The notes under the pieces: generated by a model | The model's database searches: none | What the model saw: the letters and a program-made list of their open reading frames with translations, nothing else | What the model was told of the DNA's origin: nothing | NCBI GenBank assembly: GCA_025350055.1 | Contig: JANXYK010000011.1 | Span: 1 to 64,000, forward strand | Reading direction: 5' to 3' | Length of the DNA: 64,000 nucleotides | Source of the DNA: Gammaproteobacteria bacterium | Lineage (GTDB): Bacteria > Pseudomonadota > Gammaproteobacteria > Steroidobacterales > Steroidobacteraceae | In this document: in pieces, positions 47,097 to 57,591 of the stretch | How the letters are laid out: each line of letters opens with the position of its first letter | Position numbering within the stretch: the stretch's first letter is position 1 | Position numbers and translations under genes: made by a program

Positions 47097-47285
47097 GCAC
47101 ATCGGCGGTGCGCGCAGCCGCTGTTGGATTTTCTCCACACGCAATCCCGGTCGCGACATGCGCGCGCCGCTGGCGCATCGCCGGCTCCTCCGGTACCGGG
47201 ACCACACCCGCTGGCGCCGAGTGCGTTGCGCCTGCGGGTCATTGGTTTTTAGTCTGCTGTGATCGCACACCAGGGGGATCCCAAT

Positions 47286-50200
47286 ATGCTCAGCAATTTC
47301 AGGAGAGTTGGTCTTGTCGGCATGATGCTGGTGGGTAGCCAGTGCCTGACACTGACCGCTTACGCAGCCGACCAACCCGCCGCAGCCGCAAACGGCGAAC
47401 TCGAGGAAGTTATCGTGACCGGCTCGCGTATCGCGACGCCCAATGCCACCAGCACCAGCCCGATACAGGTGGTGACCTCGCAGGACATCCTGGTGTCCGG
47501 CAAGTCAGACATCAGCGACATCATGAACCAGTTGCCGCAGAACTTTAACAACGACCTCGGGCAGGACCTGGGCAATCGCACCTCCGGCCTGTCGACAGCG
47601 GGCGGTGTCGCGACTGCGAACCTGCGCGGTCTCGGCCCGAACCGCACGCTGGTGCTCATCGACGGTCGTCGCCTCGGTGTGGAATCGCCCAATACGACGA
47701 TCCAGGCTCCGGGGCCAGATCTGGACCAGATTCCGGCGGCGCTGGTGGAGCGCGTTGAAGTCGTTACCGGCGGCGCCTCGGCGACCTACGGGTCCGATGC
47801 CATCGCCGGTGTCGTCAACTTTATCATGAAGAAGAACTTCCAGGGCCTGCAGGTCGACGGGAACCTCAGTGAGTACTGGCACAACAACCACAACAGCTTC
47901 TTGCAGCAGTCGATGCGCGATGCCGGCGAGACGCCGCTGACCGGAAGCAGCATGGATGGTCGCAGCCGCAATTTCACCATTACCGCCGGCGCGAACTTCG
48001 ATGACGGCAAGGGCAACGTGACAGCGTATTTCGGCTACCTGAAGGCCGATCCGGTCACCAGCGGCGACCGCGATGGTGGCCGGCTGCCAGCTCAGCTCTG
48101 CGCCCACCAGTCTGCTCGATCCGCCGATCTGCCTGGGTTCGTCGAACTCGAATTATTTCCGCCCGGATTCGCCGGGCAGCCCGAATGCCAGCGTGGCCTT
48201 CAGCGTGCTCGGTACGGATTTCATACCGCGCGGCTCGGCGCCTACCAATCCGCCCACGCTGTTCAACTCGCAGCCCTACATCTACATGACCCGCGGCGAC
48301 CAGCGCTACACCGCGGGCTTCAGCGCGCATGTGGACGTGAGCGACCACCTGCGTCCGTACGCCGAGTTCAACTTCATGAACGATCGCAGTCACCAGCAGA
48401 TCGCGCCGACCGCGTTGTTCCGCGACAGCAATCCGAATGATCTGACCGGCGCCGGCGACTACTACATCAATTGCAGCAACCCCTTGCTCAGCGCCCAGCA
48501 GCAGCAGACGCTGTGCACGCCCGCGCAGATCGCCGCCGACATCACCGCCATCGCCAATCACCAGGCGCCGGTCACCGTGCAGATGCGCATCGGCCGGCGC
48601 AATGTCGAGGGTGGTGGGCGATTCTCGGACTACGAACACACCAACTATCGGGCGGTGTTTGGCGCCAAGGGCAATCTGGGCGAGGCCTGGAGCTATGACG
48701 CCTATGGCCAGTTCTACTACACCAGCTTCTACAACTCGAACAACAAGTACATGAGCTTTGCCAACATTGACAAGGCCCTGTTGGTGACCACCGATGCCGC
48801 CGGCAATCCGATCTGCGTCAGCGGCGGATCCTGCGTGCCGTACAACATATTCAGGGATGGCGGCGTGACCGATGCGGCGCTCAACTACCTTTACGTGAAT
48901 GGCACGGCCTATGGCACCACGACTTTGCGCACCGTGCACGCAGACCTCACAGGTCAGCTTGGAAAATATGGTCTCAAGTTGCCGACGGCCAACGATGGCC
49001 TGGGGCTGAACATCGGCTATGAGGGCCGCAATGAGAGCCTGAAGTTCGATCCGGATTCGGCCGAGAAGAGCGGCCAGCTTTCCGGCTTCGGCAGCGCCTC
49101 GGTGGCGATCGATCGCAGCGTCTCGGTGAGCGAGCAGTTCATCGAGCTGCGGGCCCCGCTGGTGCAGGACAAGAGCGGAGTGCGTGACCTGGTGGTCGAC
49201 ACCGGCTACCGGCGTTCAGACTACTCGACCTCGGGGCCGGTGAGCGCCTACAAGTTCGAGCTGCAGTATGCGCCCACCGACTCGGTGCGCTTCCGCGCTT
49301 CCTACCAGCGTGCGATCCGCGCGCCCAGCATCATCGAGCTGTACAACCCGCTCAATGTCGGACTGATCCAGTTGGGCAATGATCCGTGCGCACCGCCAGC
49401 CACCCGCTCGCTGGCGGACTGCCTGCACACGGTGTCGGCGGCGCAGGCCGCGGCGTTCACCGCCGCCTACAACGCTGGCACGATTCCGCAGGCAACGCTT
49501 GGCCAGCTCTCGCAGCTCACCGGTGGCAATCCCGATCTCAAGCCGGAGCAGGCCGATACCTACACCTATGGCCTGACCTTCAAGCCCGCGGCGCTGCCGA
49601 ACTTCACCGGCAGCATCGACTACTTCAACATCAAGCTCAAGGACACCGTGGGCGTGCTCCCTGCCAACATCATTCTCGCCAACTGCCTGGATACCGGTGA
49701 TCCCGGCAATTGCAGCAGGATCGTGCGCACGCCCAGCACCTTTGGCCTGGTGGGCAACAGCATCGGCTCGCTGGGCTACATCCAGCTGACCAATGTCAAC
49801 ATCGGCGCCAACCAGGTCAGCGGTGTGGATCTGCAGGCCGGCTACAAACTGTCGCTCCCCTCGGGTTGGGGTGCCCTGGCCTTCACGATGAATGGCGCCT
49901 ACATGCTCAAGAACTCCACCACGCCGACGCCCGTGTCACATACCTTTGATTGCACCGGCCTGTTCGGATCGGTCTGCCAGACCATCAACCCGCGCTGGCA
50001 TCACATCGTGTGCGCGAGCTGGCTCAGTCCCTGGGACCTGAACCTGTCGCTCACCTGGCGCTACATCGGCGCCGTACTGCTCGACAACAATGATGCCGAG
50101 CCGTCGTTGCACTACGCGGTCAGCGGCTGGACCTTCCTGCCCCCGGGCTACAACGCCTTCGACGCGCGTCTCCCGTCGTTCAGCTATTTCGATCTGGCGG

Positions 50201-50373
50201 CGGCCTGGGATGCGAACAAGCACCTGCAGCTGCGCGCCGGTATCAGCAACATGTTCGACAAGGATCCGCCGCTCGCCAGCTACGAGATAATTTCGGGCGG
50301 CGCGGCAAACACCTACTCGACCTATGACCAGTTGGGTCGCCAGCTGTTCGTTGCCTTCACCGCGAAGTTCTGA
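47286..50373 (+). pseudogene. TonB-dependent receptor, interrupted by one-base frameshift
   Basis: Outer-membrane TonB-dependent receptor that would be 1,028 aa if repaired. The ATG at 47286 follows AGGGGGAT and starts a signal peptide. EEVIVTGSRI is the conserved N-terminal motif; the plug domain includes LRGLGPNRTLVLIDGRRLG and RVEVVTGGASATYGSDAIAGVVNFI. The first frame runs from 47286 to 48440 but loses similarity at about 48075, and a second frame covers 48073-50373 with the beta-barrel and terminal aromatic residue (AKF). Removing one G of the pair at 48075-48076 joins them as GDRDVAGCQLSS. Substrate cannot be inferred; this branch imports oligosaccharides, siderophores or other large solutes. 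It is convergent with the multihaem cytochrome gene. Confidence 0.87.
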
Positions 50374-50412: not shown

Positions 50413-53400
50413 CTAGTGCTTGAACGCCGCATCGCCCACCCGGTGATAGTTGGCCGGGTGCGAGGTGACGACGCTGCGTTGCGTGGCATCGCTGTACACG
50501 TGGCAGGCGCCCGTGCAGTCGCGCAACTCGGCTACCGCATACAGCAGCCCATCGCTGGTCTTCGGGTGCTGTGCCGGCTGGTAACGCGCGGCATGGCATC
50601 CGGCACAGCCGCCGGCGTAGGCGGCCGCAGGCCAGGGAATCTGTTCGCTGTTGCTGGAATGGCAGCTCGCGCACACGAGCTCTGCACGATGCTGGCCGGG
50701 GAAGGCACCAGAGCTGTGCACGAAATGCCAGGCGCTCCAGTCCGGATAGTTGTGGCAGGTGGCGCAGTCCAGCCGCGTCGTCATGTGCGTGGTCGTCACG
50801 CCCGGCGCCACGCTGTTGTTGTGGCAGCTGACACAGTTGGCCGTCAGCGTACTGTGATCCATCAATGCCGGCTTCCAGCCCAGCGTGCCGTGGCAGCTGT
50901 CGCATTGTGCCGTGGCAGGCACGTGGTTGATGGGCAGGCCCATGGCCTGCAGGCCGTTGTGGCAGCTGCGACAAGTGTGCGCCGCAATGGCGCTGTGCTC
51001 GAAGCGCGCCGGCGTCCACGCGTTGCTGGTATGGCAGGCCTCGCAACTGTTGTTGCTGGCGATGTGATGGGCACCTTTGCCGCGCGCTACGCTGCCGTTG
51101 TGGCAGCCGCTGCAGCTGCCCTTGACCTGCAGATGATCAACGCCGCTGACTGGCAGCCAGGCCAGCGTCGTATGACAACTCCCGCAACTGTCGCTGCTGG
51201 CGATGTGGGTGACTGGTTTGCCGATGCCGCTGGCCGCGCCATGACAACTCTGGCAGCTGCTGCTCACCACGCGCCGATGATCGAAGCCTGCCACACGTCC
51301 CAGCGTTGCACCGCCAGCCAGTGAGGGCGCTGCAGCGAGCTTGCTGGCGCGTTGCGCGGGTGCGAGCGGCGCGCCGCGGCGCGCACCGAACTTGTCGCGG
51401 GTGGAGTGACAGCCCGAGCCGCCGCAATCCACGCCAGCATGATGGCCGGCGGAATCGCGCACCCACAGCCGCACGCCGGTATTGGTCTTCCAGGTCATCC
51501 CGAGTTCATGGCAGCTCATGCAGGTCATGGCGCGCACCGCCGCGTGCTTCATGATGGTGCCGGAGAAAGTCGTGAACACCGTGGCCGAGTGGCACAGCTC
51601 GCAGGCGATGTTGCTCGTGCCATTGGGCGGGTTCGAAGGAATGTGCCCTGTTGCACCCGAGGGCGGCGTCATCAACGTGGGCGCCGCCATGTTGGCAAAG
51701 ACCAGGCCGTAAGCGTGGCACTGCGCGCAGTTGCTGCTGATGTTCACGTGATTCATCGTCGCCACACTGTAGTTGCCCGCCGTGGTGTGGCAGAGCGCAC
51801 AGTTGTTGTTGTCGGCCGCCGGCAGCGGGATGTGATTGGCCGGCAGATCGGTCGCACCCTTGAAGCTGGTGGTATTGAAATGACAGGTGGAGCATTCGCC
51901 GGCTGTCACATGCGCGGTACCATCAGCCTTCTTCGCCGGTCGCACTTTGATTGCTGGCGTGCCGATGAAGGTTTTGCCGGCTTCATGGCAGCTGGAGCAG
52001 ACGATGGCGCTCACCAGGCTGTGTACCATCGAGGGTGCCGCCGTTCCGCTCGCATTGGTGAACATAAAGCTGCTGAAATTGCTGGCTGAGTGACAGCCCT
52101 CGCAGGCAATCGCACTGGTCGGGATGTGATTTGCGGGCAGTACCTTGGTGGCGGGCGTGCCCACGAAGCTCTTGCCGGTACCATGGCAGTTGACGCAGCC
52201 CGTGCCGAAGCCGGAGTGCACCATAGACGGCGGTGCAGTGCCGCTCGCATTGGTGAATGCGAAGCTCGAGAAATTGGTGGGCGAGTGGCACTGCGTGCAC
52301 ACCACGGTGCCGATCGGGATGTGACTAGCCGGCTCGACCAAGGTGGCGGGAGTGCCCGCAAAGGTCATGCCTTGGCCGTGGCAACTGCTGCAGGCAGTGG
52401 TCGATACCACGGCATGGTTCATCGGCGGGCTCTTGTTGTTGATCACGAAGCTCGTGAAGCTGGTGGCGCTGTGGCAGCTCTCGCAGGCCGCGGTTCCGAA
52501 CGGCACGTGATTCGCAGGCGGGAGCTTCAGCGTCGGCGGCGCCATGTTGGCGAAGGTCTTGCCGGTCGCATGGCACTGTGCGCAATTGCTGGCAATGTTC
52601 ACATGGTTCATCGCCGCCACGCTGTAGTTGCCCGCCGTCGTATGGCAGAGCGCGCAGGTGTTGTTGTCCGCAGCGGGCAGCGGAATGTGATTGGCCGGCA
52701 GGTCGGTCGCACCCTTGAAGCTCGTGGTATTGAAATGGCAGGTGGAGCATTCGCCCGAAACCACGTGCGCCGTGCCATCGGCTTTCAGAACAGGGCGCAC
52801 TTTGGTCGCCGGCGTGCCGATGAAACTCTTGCCGGCTTCATGGCAGCCCGAGCACACGATCGCCGTGACCAGGCCGTGCACCATCGAGGGTGCTACGCTG
52901 CCGCTGGCATTGGCAAAGGCGAAGCTGCTGAAAGCTGAACTGGAGTGACAGCCTTCGCAGGCCATGCTGCCGGTGGGAATATGGTTGCCAGGCAGGGTCT
53001 TCACCGCGGGCGTGCCCACCCAGCTCTGGCCGACACCGTGACAGGTCACGCAGCCGTTGGTGAATCCGGTGTGATTCATCGGCGGCACCGCGTTGGCGAT
53101 CACGAAACTGCTGAAGTTGCTGGCGGAATGACAGTTGCTGCAAGCCGTGGCACCGATGGGCACGTGGTTGCCGGGCTCGGCCACGGTAGCAGGCGTGCCG
53201 ATGTAGCTCTCGCCCAGGCCGTGACAGCTGCTGCAGGCGATGGTTGAGACCACCGCGTGGTTCATCGGCGGACTCTTGTTGTTGACCACGAAACTCGTGA
53301 AGCCCGTGGCGCTGTGGCAACTCTCGCAGGCCGCGGTGCCAAAGGGAACGTGGTTCGCCGGCGGCAACTTCAGCGTCGGCGGCGCCATGTTGGCGAAGCT

Positions 53401-56400
53401 CTTGCCCGTGGCGTGGCACTGCGCGCAGTTGCTGGCGATGTTTACGTGGTTCATCGTCGCCACGCTGTAGTTGCCTGCTGTGGTATGGCAGAGCGCACAG
53501 TTGTTGTTGTCGGCCGCCGGCAACGGAATGTGGTTGGCCGGCAGGTCGGTCGCACCCTTGAAGCTCGTGGTGTTGAAGTGACAGGTGGAGCATTCACCGG
53601 TTGCCACGTGCGCCGTGCCATCGGCCTTGGTAGCCGGGCGCAGGCGCGTCGCCGGCGTACCCGCCCAGCTGTGGCCGGCCTCGTGACAGGCCGAGCAGGC
53701 TATGCTGCTCACCACGCTGTGCACCATCGAGGGCGGCGCGGTGCCCGTGAGATTGCTGAAACTGAAGCTGCTGAAGTTCGCCGGCGCATGACAGCTCTCG
53801 CAGGCGGCCGTGCCGAAGGGCACGTGATTGCCGGGTGGCAGTACCGTCGCTGGTGTGCCCACCCAGCTGCTGCCGCTGGCGTGGCAGGTGGCGCAGGCCA
53901 CGCCCGACACGGCCGCGTGGCTCATTGGTGGGCTCTTATTGCTGATCACGAAGCTGGTGAAGTTGCTTGCGCTGTGGCAACTCTCGCAGGCCGCCGAGCC
54001 AATGGGCACATGGTTGGCCGGCGGCAGGCGCAGGGCAGGCGGTGCCATGTTGGCAAAGCTCTTGCCCGTGGCGTGGCACTGCGTGCAGCTGCTGGCGATG
54101 TTCACGTGGTTCATCGTTGCGACGCTGTAGTTGCCCGTCGTGGTATGGCAGAGCGCGCAGTTGTTGTTGTCGGCGGCTGGCAACGGAATGTGGTTGTTCG
54201 GCAGATCCGTGGCGCCCTTGAAGCTGGTGGCATTGAAGTGGCAGGTGGAGCATTCGCCAGTCAGCACGTGCGCGGTGCCATCGGCCTTGGTGGCCGGGCG
54301 CAGGCGCGTCGTCGGCGTGCCTGCCCAGCTGTGGCCGGCCTCGTGACAGGCCGAGCAGGCCATGCTGCTCACCACGCCGTGGACCATCGAGGGCGGCGCA
54401 GTACCGCTGGCATTGCTGAACAGGAAGCTGCCGAAATTCGTTGGCGCGTGACAGCTCTCGCAGGCGGCCGTGCCAAAGGGAATGTGATTGCCGGGTGGCA
54501 GTACCGTCGCTGGTGTGCCCACCCAGCTGCTGCCGCTGGCGTGGCAGGTGGCGCAGGCCACGCCCGACACCGCCGCGTGATTCATCGGCGGACTCTTGTT
54601 GCTGATCACGAAGCTGCTGAAGCTGCTGGCGCTGTGGCAGCTCTCGCAGGCCGCGCTGCCAAAGGGAATGTGATTCGTGGGCGGGAGCTTGAGTGTCGGT
54701 GGCGCCATATTGGCAAAGCTCTTGCCGGTCGCGTGACACTGCACGCAATTGCCCGCGATGTTGACGTGATTCATCGTGGCAACACTGTAGTCGCCAGCGC
54801 TCGTATGGCAGAGCGCGCAGTTGTTGTTGTCCGCGGCCGGCAGCGGAATGTGGTTGTTCGGCAGGTCGGTCGCGCCCTTGAAGCTCACGGTACTGAAATG
54901 ACAGGTGGAGCATTCGCCCGCTGCCACGTGAGCGCTGCCATCGGCCTTGGTTGTGGGTCGCAACAGCGTCGAGGGTGCACCGAGCCAGTTGTGTCCCTGC
55001 TCGTGGCAGCTCGAACAGGCCGCACTGCCCACCGCGCTGTGCACCATGGCCGGTGGTGCGGTGCCGCTGGCATTCACGAAGCTGAATGAATTGAAGTTCG
55101 ATGCGCTGTGGCAAAGCGCGCAATTGGCGCTGCCCACCGGCACATGGCCTGCCGGTAGCGTCACCACTGGCGGTGTGCCGACGAACACCAGGCCCGAGCC
55201 GTGGCATTGCGCGCAGCCCAGCGCGCTCACCGCCGCGTGATTCATCGGCGGGCTTTTGTTGCTGATCGCAAAGCCCGTGAAGTCGGTCGCGCTGTGGCAG
55301 CTCTCGCAGGCCGCGCTGCCGATGGGAATGTGATTGCCGGGCGACACCTTCAGTACGGGCGGCGCCATGTTGGCGAAGCTGCGGTCCGCGGCATGGCACA
55401 CCGCGCAGGCGCTGGTGCTGACCACGCCGTGATCCATCGTGTAGCTCGAGTAGTCCGCGGCGTTGCTGTGACAGGCGGAACATTGGCTCGATGAGCCGCT
55501 GGGCAGCGGGATATGGTTGCTCGGCAGGTCGATCGCGCCCTTGAAGCTCGTGGTGTTGAAGTGGCAGGTGGAGCATTCACCCGCTGCCACGTGCGTGCCG
55601 CCGCTGGCCTTCAGCGCTGGTCGCAGCACGGTCGCAGGTGCGCCGGCCCAGCTGTGACCAGCCTCATGGCAGCTCGAGCAGACGCTGCCACTCACCACAC
55701 TGTGCAGCATCGACGGCGGCGCGCTGCCGCTGACATTGCTGAACATGAAACTGCTGAAAGTCGCCGCTGCATGGCAGCTCTCGCAGGCCGCCGTGCCGGT
55801 CGGTACGTGATTGCCAGGCGGCAGCACCGTGGCGGGTGTGCCCACCCAGCTATTGCCGGTTGCATGACAGCTGGCACAGGGCAGGCCCGCGACCACCGCG
55901 TGATTCATCGGCGGGCTTTTGTTGCTGATCGCAAAGCCCGTGAAGTTGCTGGCGCTGTGGCAGCTCTCGCAGGCGGCGGCGTCGATCGGAATGTGATTGG
56001 ACGGCGGCACCTTGAGCGTTGGCGGCGCCATGTTGGCAAAGCTGCGGTCGGACGCGTGGCAGACGGCACAGGCCGTGCCTCCCACGACCGAGTGATTCAT
56101 CGTGTAGCTCGAGTAGTCCGCGCTGTTCGCATGGCAGGCTCTGCAGGCCGTCCCAGAGCCATTGGACAGCGGAATGTGGTTGCTGGGCAGGTCCGTTGCG
56201 CCCTTGAAGCTGGTGGTATTGAAATGACAGGTCGAGCACTCGCCCGCGCTCACGTGCGCCGCGCCATCCGCCTTGAGCGCGGGCCGCAGCGACGTGGGCG
56301 GTGCACCGACCCAGCTGTTGCCCTGCTCGTGGCAACTCGAGCAGGTCGCAGTGCCCACGGCGCTGTGCACCATCGCCGGTGGTCCACTGCCGCTCGCATT

Positions 56401-57591
56401 CACGAACATGAACGATGTGAAATTCGAACTCGAATGGCAGTTCTCGCAGGCGCTGGCGCCGAAGGGCACGTGATTCGCCGGCGGCACCCTGAGCTGTGGC
56501 GGCGCCAGGTTGGCGAAACTGCGGTCGGCGGCATGGCACAGCGCGCAACCGCTGCTGATGCCATCGTGGCGCATCAGGTAGACGCTGAAATCCGCGGGGT
56601 TCGAGTGACAGAGCGTGCAGGGCTGCGCGGTGGGTATGTGTCCGCTGGGTTGCACAGTGCCGTTGGTGAACGAGACTGTTGAGAGATGGCAGGTGCCGCA
56701 ATCGCCTTGCACCGGATGTGGCGCCGCAGGCCGCGTCACCATCGTCACGCCCAAGAAAGTCCTGCCGGTTTCATGGCAATCCGCGCAGGGCATGGGCGGT
56801 GTTACCGCCGCGTGATTCATCAGCGCCCCGCTGAAACTCGTGTACTGCGTGGGGATATGGCAAGCCTCGCAGGCTGCGCCGTCCGTCGGCAGATGCGTGG
56901 CCGGCAGGCCACTGGCTGAAACGCCGTTGTGGCAGCTGGCGCAGCCGCTCACCACGCCCGTGTGATTGAAGAGCGCGCCGGCCCAATTGAAGGTGGAATG
57001 GCAGGCATCGCACTCGAGGTTGGTCTCGATGTGCTGCGGCCCCTTGCCCTGGGCCTGCACACCGTTGTGGCAGGAGGAGCAGCCACCGCGCACTTCCGCG
57101 TGATCGAAATTCACCGCCGGACTGAAGGCCACCGGCGTGTGGCAGCTCTCGCAGCGGTTGGAGCTCAGGATGTGGCTGAGCGGTTTGCCCGTGGCGTGCA
57201 CCTGAGTGCCCAGGCCGTGGCAACTCGCGCAGTCACGCGGCGTGCCTTTGAACACTGCATTGAAGTGGCAGGTCTCACAGGGCAGATCGCGATGCTTGCC
57301 GACCAGCTCGAAGCCAGTGGTCAGGTGGTCGAAGGGCGTGCGCTGCACTTTGGGCGGCTGTGCAGGCGCCTGCGCAGATGTCGGTGCAGCCGCAGTTGCA
57401 GCCGCAGGCGCCGCTGCTGCCACTGCCGGGCACGTGACCCACAGCAGCAGCGCCGTCAGCAGCATTCGCCCACTGACGCCGCGCGCGCGCGGCGTGCTGA
57501 GCGTGTTCAGCTTTGCCACTCTGGCAGTGGCCCGCCGCTGCGGCGGTATGAGTGCCGATGCGCGCCGCTGCGTACACGCAGCGCTTCGCAC
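50413..57591 (-). CDS. Giant multihaem c-type cytochrome-like protein (about 76 CxnCH motifs)
   Basis: An open frame of up to 2,392 codons. I count 74 CxxCH motifs, one CX4CH (CGGSGCH) and one CX3CH (CTGACH near the C-terminus). Most modules are 24-35 residues and include at least one more histidine, typically NHIP, NHVP, MNH or MVH, suited to bis-histidine haem ligation. The first 9 modules and the last 11 resemble cytochrome c7/c3-type repeats with CHNG; the middle is built from near-identical 7- and 9-motif units. The N-terminus has basic residues and a signal-like LLTALLLWVTCPAVAAA, then an Ala/Pro linker, so secretion by Sec is likely. Starts at GTG 57591, GTG 57519 and ATG 57465 are all possible. 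No membrane helix follows, so it is periplasmic or extracellular. Haem attachment and electron transfer are inferred. Confidence 0.9.
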   Translation of the reverse strand: MRSAACTQRRASALIPPQRRATARVAKLNTLSTPRARGVSGRMLLTALLLWVTCPAVAAAAPAAATAAAPTSAQAPAQPPKVQRTPFDHLTTGFELVGKHRDLPCETCHFNAVFKGTPRDCASCHGLGTQVHATGKPLSHILSSNRCESCHTPVAFSPAVNFDHAEVRGGCSSCHNGVQAQGKGPQHIETNLECDACHSTFNWAGALFNHTGVVSGCASCHNGVSASGLPATHLPTDGAACEACHIPTQYTSFSGALMNHAAVTPPMPCADCHETGRTFLGVTMVTRPAAPHPVQGDCGTCHLSTVSFTNGTVQPSGHIPTAQPCTLCHSNPADFSVYLMRHDGISSGCALCHAADRSFANLAPPQLRVPPANHVPFGASACENCHSSSNFTSFMFVNASGSGPPAMVHSAVGTATCSSCHEQGNSWVGAPPTSLRPALKADGAAHVSAGECSTCHFNTTSFKGATDLPSNHIPLSNGSGTACRACHANSADYSSYTMNHSVVGGTACAVCHASDRSFANMAPPTLKVPPSNHIPIDAAACESCHSASNFTGFAISNKSPPMNHAVVAGLPCASCHATGNSWVGTPATVLPPGNHVPTGTAACESCHAAATFSSFMFSNVSGSAPPSMLHSVVSGSVCSSCHEAGHSWAGAPATVLRPALKASGGTHVAAGECSTCHFNTTSFKGAIDLPSNHIPLPSGSSSQCSACHSNAADYSSYTMDHGVVSTSACAVCHAADRSFANMAPPVLKVSPGNHIPIGSAACESCHSATDFTGFAISNKSPPMNHAAVSALGCAQCHGSGLVFVGTPPVVTLPAGHVPVGSANCALCHSASNFNSFSFVNASGTAPPAMVHSAVGSAACSSCHEQGHNWLGAPSTLLRPTTKADGSAHVAAGECSTCHFSTVSFKGATDLPNNHIPLPAADNNNCALCHTSAGDYSVATMNHVNIAGNCVQCHATGKSFANMAPPTLKLPPTNHIPFGSAACESCHSASSFSSFVISNKSPPMNHAAVSGVACATCHASGSSWVGTPATVLPPGNHIPFGTAACESCHAPTNFGSFLFSNASGTAPPSMVHGVVSSMACSACHEAGHSWAGTPTTRLRPATKADGTAHVLTGECSTCHFNATSFKGATDLPNNHIPLPAADNNNCALCHTTTGNYSVATMNHVNIASSCTQCHATGKSFANMAPPALRLPPANHVPIGSAACESCHSASNFTSFVISNKSPPMSHAAVSGVACATCHASGSSWVGTPATVLPPGNHVPFGTAACESCHAPANFSSFSFSNLTGTAPPSMVHSVVSSIACSACHEAGHSWAGTPATRLRPATKADGTAHVATGECSTCHFNTTSFKGATDLPANHIPLPAADNNNCALCHTTAGNYSVATMNHVNIASNCAQCHATGKSFANMAPPTLKLPPANHVPFGTAACESCHSATGFTSFVVNNKSPPMNHAVVSTIACSSCHGLGESYIGTPATVAEPGNHVPIGATACSNCHSASNFSSFVIANAVPPMNHTGFTNGCVTCHGVGQSWVGTPAVKTLPGNHIPTGSMACEGCHSSSAFSSFAFANASGSVAPSMVHGLVTAIVCSGCHEAGKSFIGTPATKVRPVLKADGTAHVVSGECSTCHFNTTSFKGATDLPANHIPLPAADNNTCALCHTTAGNYSVAAMNHVNIASNCAQCHATGKTFANMAPPTLKLPPANHVPFGTAACESCHSATSFTSFVINNKSPPMNHAVVSTTACSSCHGQGMTFAGTPATLVEPASHIPIGTVVCTQCHSPTNFSSFAFTNASGTAPPSMVHSGFGTGCVNCHGTGKSFVGTPATKVLPANHIPTSAIACEGCHSASNFSSFMFTNASGTAAPSMVHSLVSAIVCSSCHEAGKTFIGTPAIKVRPAKKADGTAHVTAGECSTCHFNTTSFKGATDLPANHIPLPAADNNNCALCHTTAGNYSVATMNHVNISSNCAQCHAYGLVFANMAAPTLMTPPSGATGHIPSNPPNGTSNIACELCHSATVFTTFSGTIMKHAAVRAMTCMSCHELGMTWKTNTGVRLWVRDSAGHHAGVDCGGSGCHSTRDKFGARRGAPLAPAQRASKLAAAPSLAGGATLGRVAGFDHRRVVSSSCQSCHGAASGIGKPVTHIASSDSCGSCHTTLAWLPVSGVDHLQVKGSCSGCHNGSVARGKGAHHIASNNSCEACHTSNAWTPARFEHSAIAAHTCRSCHNGLQAMGLPINHVPATAQCDSCHGTLGWKPALMDHSTLTANCVSCHNNSVAPGVTTTHMTTRLDCATCHNYPDWSAWHFVHSSGAFPGQHRAELVCASCHSSNSEQIPWPAAAYAGGCAGCHAARYQPAQHPKTSDGLLYAVAELRDCTGACHVYSDATQRSVVTSHPANYHRVGDAAFKH
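51895..56238 (-). repeat. In-frame tandem repeats within the multihaem gene
   Basis: Six head-to-tail units, each beginning at a CSTCH module. First-Cys codons end at 56238, 55575, 54912, 54252, 53592, 52749 and 51894, giving unit lengths of 663, 663, 660, 660, 843 and 855 bp. The four short units encode 7 motifs in 220-221 aa; the two long units encode 9 motifs by adding a two-module insertion. Bases 53824-53910 are identical to 54484-54570 over 87 bp, showing recent duplication or gene conversion. Copy number could vary or be mis-assembled. Confidence 0.9.

Follow-up and report, generated by a model that had tools for sequence, protein, structure and literature searches.

Within the window, by which we mean the whole 64-kb stretch of DNA analysed, positions 50413..57591 of the minus strand hold an open reading frame of 2,392 aa, counted from the first GTG, with 76 haem-binding motifs. 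A script count found 74 CxxCH motifs, one CX3CH and one CX4CH motif in this frame, the terminal stop codon being its sole stop, and 0 to 1 motifs with 9 to 85 stops in each of the remaining five frames. Shuffling the residues of the protein left a mean of 2 motifs and a maximum of 9. The motifs are spaced at 31.5 aa per haem site, and only two cysteines fall outside them, at residues 6 and 54, which belong to the signal peptide or to the stretch ahead of it. There are 88 nonmotif histidines, and 73 of the 76 motifs have such a spare histidine 5 to 14 residues upstream of the first cysteine, mostly at 7 to 8 residues; with randomised placement, the mean was 28 and the maximum 40. The observed pattern fits bis-His ligation. 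Translation probably begins later than the first GTG. Two candidate starts, the GTG of residue 26 (57516) and the ATG of residue 43 (57465), stand shortly ahead of what inspection shows to be a signal-peptide-like stretch, MLLTALLLWVTCPAVAAAAPA, and choosing either removes no motif. A preliminary description of the locus had listed by hand the same 74 + 1 + 1 motifs in at most 2,392 aa, about one per 31 residues, with bis-His spacing and a signal peptide; the script count was identical, the density and spacing were borne out computationally, and the signal peptide agrees with our visual inspection of 57406..57465.

The protein, all of whose parts are given on the minus strand, has a long repeat architecture. 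The signal-peptide-like stretch MLLTALLLWVTCPAVAAAAP (57406..57465, identified by inspection), which has no lipobox, is followed by a conserved head (56884..57333, FDHLTTGFEL...) that served as our query for relatives, then by four modules of ~220 aa, two of ~283 aa and a conserved tail (50416..51654, residues 1980-2392). Module 1 is preceded by 13 motifs, all of them C-terminal to the signal peptide. Modules 1 (55579..56241) and 2 (54916..55578) are 221 aa long and modules 3 (54256..54915) and 4 (53596..54255) 220 aa, each with 7 motifs; modules 5 (52753..53595, 281 aa) and 6 (51898..52752, 285 aa) contain 9 motifs each, and a further 17 motifs lie C-terminal to module 6. The modules are 60-88% identical at the protein level, module 4 being 88% identical to module 3, and their sequences diverge by 12-40% in amino acids and by 15-35% in nucleotides. 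The two atypical motifs, CX4CH (CGGSGCH, 51406..51426) and CX3CH (CTGACH, 50500..50517), are no accidents, as their cysteines and histidine are invariant in 17 relatives. Pfam cytochrome c7 and c3 domains were found along the whole protein (E 2.8e-91 and 7.7e-76). AlphaFold2 gave a pLDDT of 59.5 and a pTM of 0.32 for a two-module stretch and 33.8 and 0.17 for the tail, and these models are too poor for any reading of shape.

Two comparisons of dN/dS show that the gene is under purifying selection. Between the modules the ratio was 0.15-0.36, and for the head and tail, compared with the host's own paralogue, encoded on contig C57, and with another unlinked copy, it was ~0.2 (0.19-0.23), a rough value with dS near saturation. 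A c-type cytochrome is recognised by CxxCH motifs together with a maturation system, and the host genome offers both, 74 CxxCH in this protein and CcmF and CcmH on contig C37; the ccm genes had been named in the preliminary description as something to look for. We expect the protein to carry ~76 mostly bis-His haems along its single chain.

The search for homologues that had been suggested for this gene found relatives among the extracellular cytochromes of PCC3, a porin-cytochrome cluster that, in He et al. 2017 (PMC5566968), consists of a porin, an extracellular cytochrome, a periplasmic cytochrome and an inner-membrane protein (IMP) with WX3HX13H and SGXXG motifs. Those relatives that bear a name are MAGs of gammaproteobacteria, and one of them is labelled as Steroidobacteraceae. 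The head is 54-67% identical to heads from other PCC3-type loci, and the protein has the many motifs, low residue-to-haem ratio and haem-bearing repeats of that family (76 motifs, six modules of 7 or 9). By sequence, it belongs to the PCC3 extracellular-cytochrome family and would be located outside the cell. The preliminary description had measured it against cytochromes of 4-20 haems, a yardstick that overlooks its own family: the same text gives a median of 34 and a maximum of 85 motifs for PCC3 extracellular cytochromes, and a median of 21 for the periplasmic ones.

The window contains no homologue of the PCC3 porin, periplasmic cytochrome or IMP, in agreement with the earlier remark that no porin or anchoring cytochrome adjoins the gene, and this absence counts against a link to a conduit. 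At 47259-50373 (+), the window holds a TonB-dependent receptor broken into two frames that overlap, one with the plug domain (47259-48440) and one with the barrel (48073-50373), through a frameshift or sequencing error. The partners are absent from the window and present in the genome, as a predicted PCC3 conduit is encoded on contig C57 together with the paralogue, a protein of 1,554 aa and 50 motifs that is 72-79% identical to the 76-motif protein in the head and 67% in the tail. The neighbours of the 50-motif gene encode an Ank/Sel1 protein, a 4Fe-4S pyridine-nucleotide oxidoreductase, a CycH/CcmI-like protein, a 282-aa membrane protein, a 21-haem cytochrome (21 CxxCH) and an 821-aa SPOR/TPR protein. 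As described for the PCC3 IMP (~300 aa, two WX3HX13H and one SGXXG), the membrane protein has WX3HX13H at 76 and 257, SGVIG at 117 and five hydrophobic segments; likewise, the expected adjacency of a ~21-haem periplasmic and an extracellular cytochrome is found in the neighbouring 21- and 50-motif genes. The gene of the 821-aa protein, a putative barrel with a C-terminal phenylalanine, overlaps the end of the 50-motif gene, and its product matches the porin-position protein of a Sideroxydans locus (30% identity, E 3e-50). That locus has the same gene order, with identities of 56% for the oxidoreductase, 31% for the IMP, 43% for the periplasmic cytochrome and 30% for the putative barrel. Judged by these similarities, the C57 cluster matches PCC3. 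In the host genome, C57 holds both the one strong match to the IMP and the one full match to the putative barrel.

We made several further observations on such clusters. An open frame of 1,597 aa runs antisense to the 50-motif gene (L004:7150-11943 (-)); it is a by-product of high GC and repeats, and automatic gene callers may choose it wrongly. The 4Fe-4S and pyridine-nucleotide-disulphide oxidoreductase (L004:1855-3165 (-), L112:5473-6768 (-)) adjoins the PCC3 IMP in most loci seen, Sideroxydans included, with 53-81% identity. It is absent from the four PCC3 components given in the accessible text of He et al. 2017 (PMC5566968), and a possible role for it is to link the conduit to NAD(P)H. 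Other recurrent neighbours of PCC3 in the host's family are the Ank/Sel1 protein (L004:2-1858 (-)), the CycH/CcmI-like protein with its Ig_CycH domain (L004:3369-4697 (+)) and a 196-aa protein of unassigned family (L004:14236-14826 (+)). Nine loci (L026, L028, L030, L032, L035, L037, L040, L041 and L043) agree in a periplasmic cytochrome of exactly 21 CxxCH, while the outer one ranges over 25-61; in loci of Gallionellaceae and Burkholderiales, the periplasmic protein has 24 or 27 CxxCH.

Sequence comparison identifies the 76-motif gene as a longer, dispersed copy of a PCC3 outer cytochrome without local partners, and similar orphans occur in relatives. The head was found in 9 of 15 genomes of the host's genus and at two loci in four of them. 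Genome G063 carries both an 80-motif orphan and a 44-motif cluster copy; in G047, the orphan is split across two contig ends (34 and 33 motifs, ~67 if one gene) and the cluster copy again has 44. G094, from another genus, has an orphan of 107 motifs and 4,088 aa, and its PCC3 cluster lies on a different contig. None of these three orphans has PCC3 parts adjoining, and each genome has PCC3 elsewhere. Intact cluster-encoded outer cytochromes of close relatives have 25-61 motifs, and the orphans known here are therefore the longer ones. The G094 orphan (L033:5007-17273 (+), G094:C1) has 106 CxxCH, one longer motif and a PCC3-type head, and comes near the highest motif numbers reported (112 and 113). 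Another giant of the outer family, at L087:6353-16910 (+), has at least 93 CxxCH plus 1 in 3,519 aa and ends at the contig edge.

The window gene shares no flanking genes with the orphans of G063 and G047. In the tree, three genus mates grouped with support of 92/94 and the window copy sided weakly with its own cluster copy (77/86); constraining the orphans to one clade gave an AU P value of 0.41, such that a single origin is neither supported nor rejected. We set aside an 85-row tree of heads, which was poorly resolved near the window and in which 23 rows were 21-haem proteins collected by a loose pattern. Across 100 genomes of the host's family, the cytochrome family was present in 42 and a strong IMP match (E below 1e-30, our own cut-off) in 43, all 42 being among the 43 (Fisher P value 1.5e-27, indicative only, as the genomes are related and not independent).

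We lean, by a little over even chances, towards the 76-motif protein being an outer wire that draws on the cell's single PCC3 conduit, as an alternative to the cluster-encoded cytochrome or as an extension. The protein would be exported and loaded with haem by the Ccm system, and electrons would pass from the quinone pool through the inner-membrane b-type-like protein to the 21-haem periplasmic cytochrome, from there through the outer-membrane barrel to either the 50-motif or the 76-motif cytochrome docked on it, and from that outer cytochrome to an insoluble or distant partner. Export of electrons is mildly favoured over their uptake, as expected of a heterotroph rather than an autotroph, because no RuBisCO large subunit was found in the host genome. 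Several points count against an outer wire: we recognised no signal for outer-membrane passage in the protein, PCC3 is a functionally unverified system (PMC12442390), and its genes fall on Fe(II) in Sideroxydans lithotrophicus ES-1 (PMC8788666), a strain whose proteomes did not reveal the extracellular cytochrome encoded in one of its PCC3 clusters (PMC12016527). Of the haem wire put forward in the preliminary description, the secreted multihaem candidate is well supported, given its motif density, bis-His pattern, intact motifs, selection and ccm genes; the 4-20-haem yardstick needs correcting, and partners that are not adjacent are encoded elsewhere in the genome.

The best surviving alternative, which we nevertheless hold to be unlikely, is that the protein, whether periplasmic or retained on the cell surface, serves as a store of up to 76 electrons for times when acceptors are scarce, with no conduction over distance. 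Its many haem sites, the lack of adjoining partner genes and of an outer-membrane export signal, and the capacitor roles proposed for such proteins (PMC10734462, PMC11495043) would suit a store, but the genes of its closest relatives adjoin one for a putative outer-membrane barrel protein, and a chain of 21-27 haems has been considered sufficient to bridge the periplasm (PMC10734462), which would leave an extended chain of 76 too long to fit there. It is distinctly improbable that the orphan is a secreted wire working without the PCC3 conduit, for instance in an intercellular matrix or with another outer-membrane partner. The orphans are indeed unlinked in three genus mates and have differing flanks, which could mean separate regulation; against this, every one of the 42 family-bearing genomes also has the PCC3 IMP, and the host genome has no MtrB/PioB porin. 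A redundant duplicate heading for loss and kept by chance would explain why only some genomes of the genus have the copy and why a simple scan for promoters near the gene gave nothing above chance, yet we regard this as very unlikely, with all 76 motifs intact, dN/dS at ~0.2 against relatives and 0.15-0.36 between modules, and orphans retained in several genomes. An artefact of assembly, with the wrong repeat number or frame, is hardly credible even for a repetitive gene in a 76-contig assembly: judged from the assembled sequence, no exact internal repeat exceeds 87 bp, a length that usual short reads would cover and hence an argument against a collapsed repeat, the modules have diverged as described, and a comparable long orphan in an independent assembly has a longest repeat of 44 bp (89 bp in the 107-motif orphan of G094). 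Nothing in the repeat content points to an assembly error.

If the 76-motif protein does act as an outer wire on the PCC3 conduit, a broader scheme may be sketched, which is possible though rather doubtful: some gammaproteobacteria would have a two-locus system, with a fixed PCC3 conduit and its medium-sized outer cytochrome at one locus and, at another, outer cytochromes of 76 to over 100 haems that swap onto or extend the conduit to reach farther partners, the wire length being adjusted as modules of 7-9 haems are gained or lost. That orphans have reached 76-107 motifs in different genera suggests selection on length itself. Few electron-transfer systems predicted in bacteria are as rich in haem as PCC3, and one conduit with two outer cytochromes of 50 and 76 motifs in one genome forms a natural test of wire length. 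In the accessible parts of the literature on PCC3 and giant cytochromes, we found no description of an unlinked, lengthened outer-cytochrome copy in the same genome as a complete conduit.

Among known systems, the 76-motif protein is closest to the PCC3 extracellular cytochromes (PMC5566968; PMC10734462, a survey of Gallionellaceae): it has a homologous head, repeats and tail, ~31 residues per haem with the haem sites in repeat units, a composition rich in Ala, Ser, Thr and Gly, and a host that carries the PCC3 set. Unlike them, its gene has no adjoining porin, periplasmic cytochrome or IMP, and it is longer than the intact cluster-encoded copies of close relatives. With the MtrC/OmcA-type decahaem cytochromes it shares a proposed outer electron-transfer role and, against solved MtrC-family chains, a short profile similarity, but the long repeat architecture sets it apart. 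Membership of the OmcA/MtrC family was rejected, the score against that NCBIfam model (141.5 bits) being below the curated cut-off of 209.3; for the DmsE model, it was likewise under the cut-off (170.6 against 192.2). Other giants have a similar or larger motif number in one polypeptide, among them a 113-motif protein in Ca. Methanoperedens manganicus (PMC7082337), one of 112 motifs from a Paludibaculum MAG (PMC11495043) and one of 86 in ANME-2c (PMC9012536); set beside these and the 85 of PCC3, 76 is high but no record. Large ANME giants often have S-layer domains, whereas the Pfam search found none here. A sequence search of solved structures (PDB) returned only short or weak cytochrome matches, and no OmcS, OmcE or OmcZ chain was named among them. 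The protein may nevertheless resemble these Geobacter nanowires as a long-range extracellular haem chain, but those are built by polymerisation of small subunits and this is a single very long polypeptide; should the orphans prove conductive, each would be a genetically encoded wire made of one chain, with a defined length.
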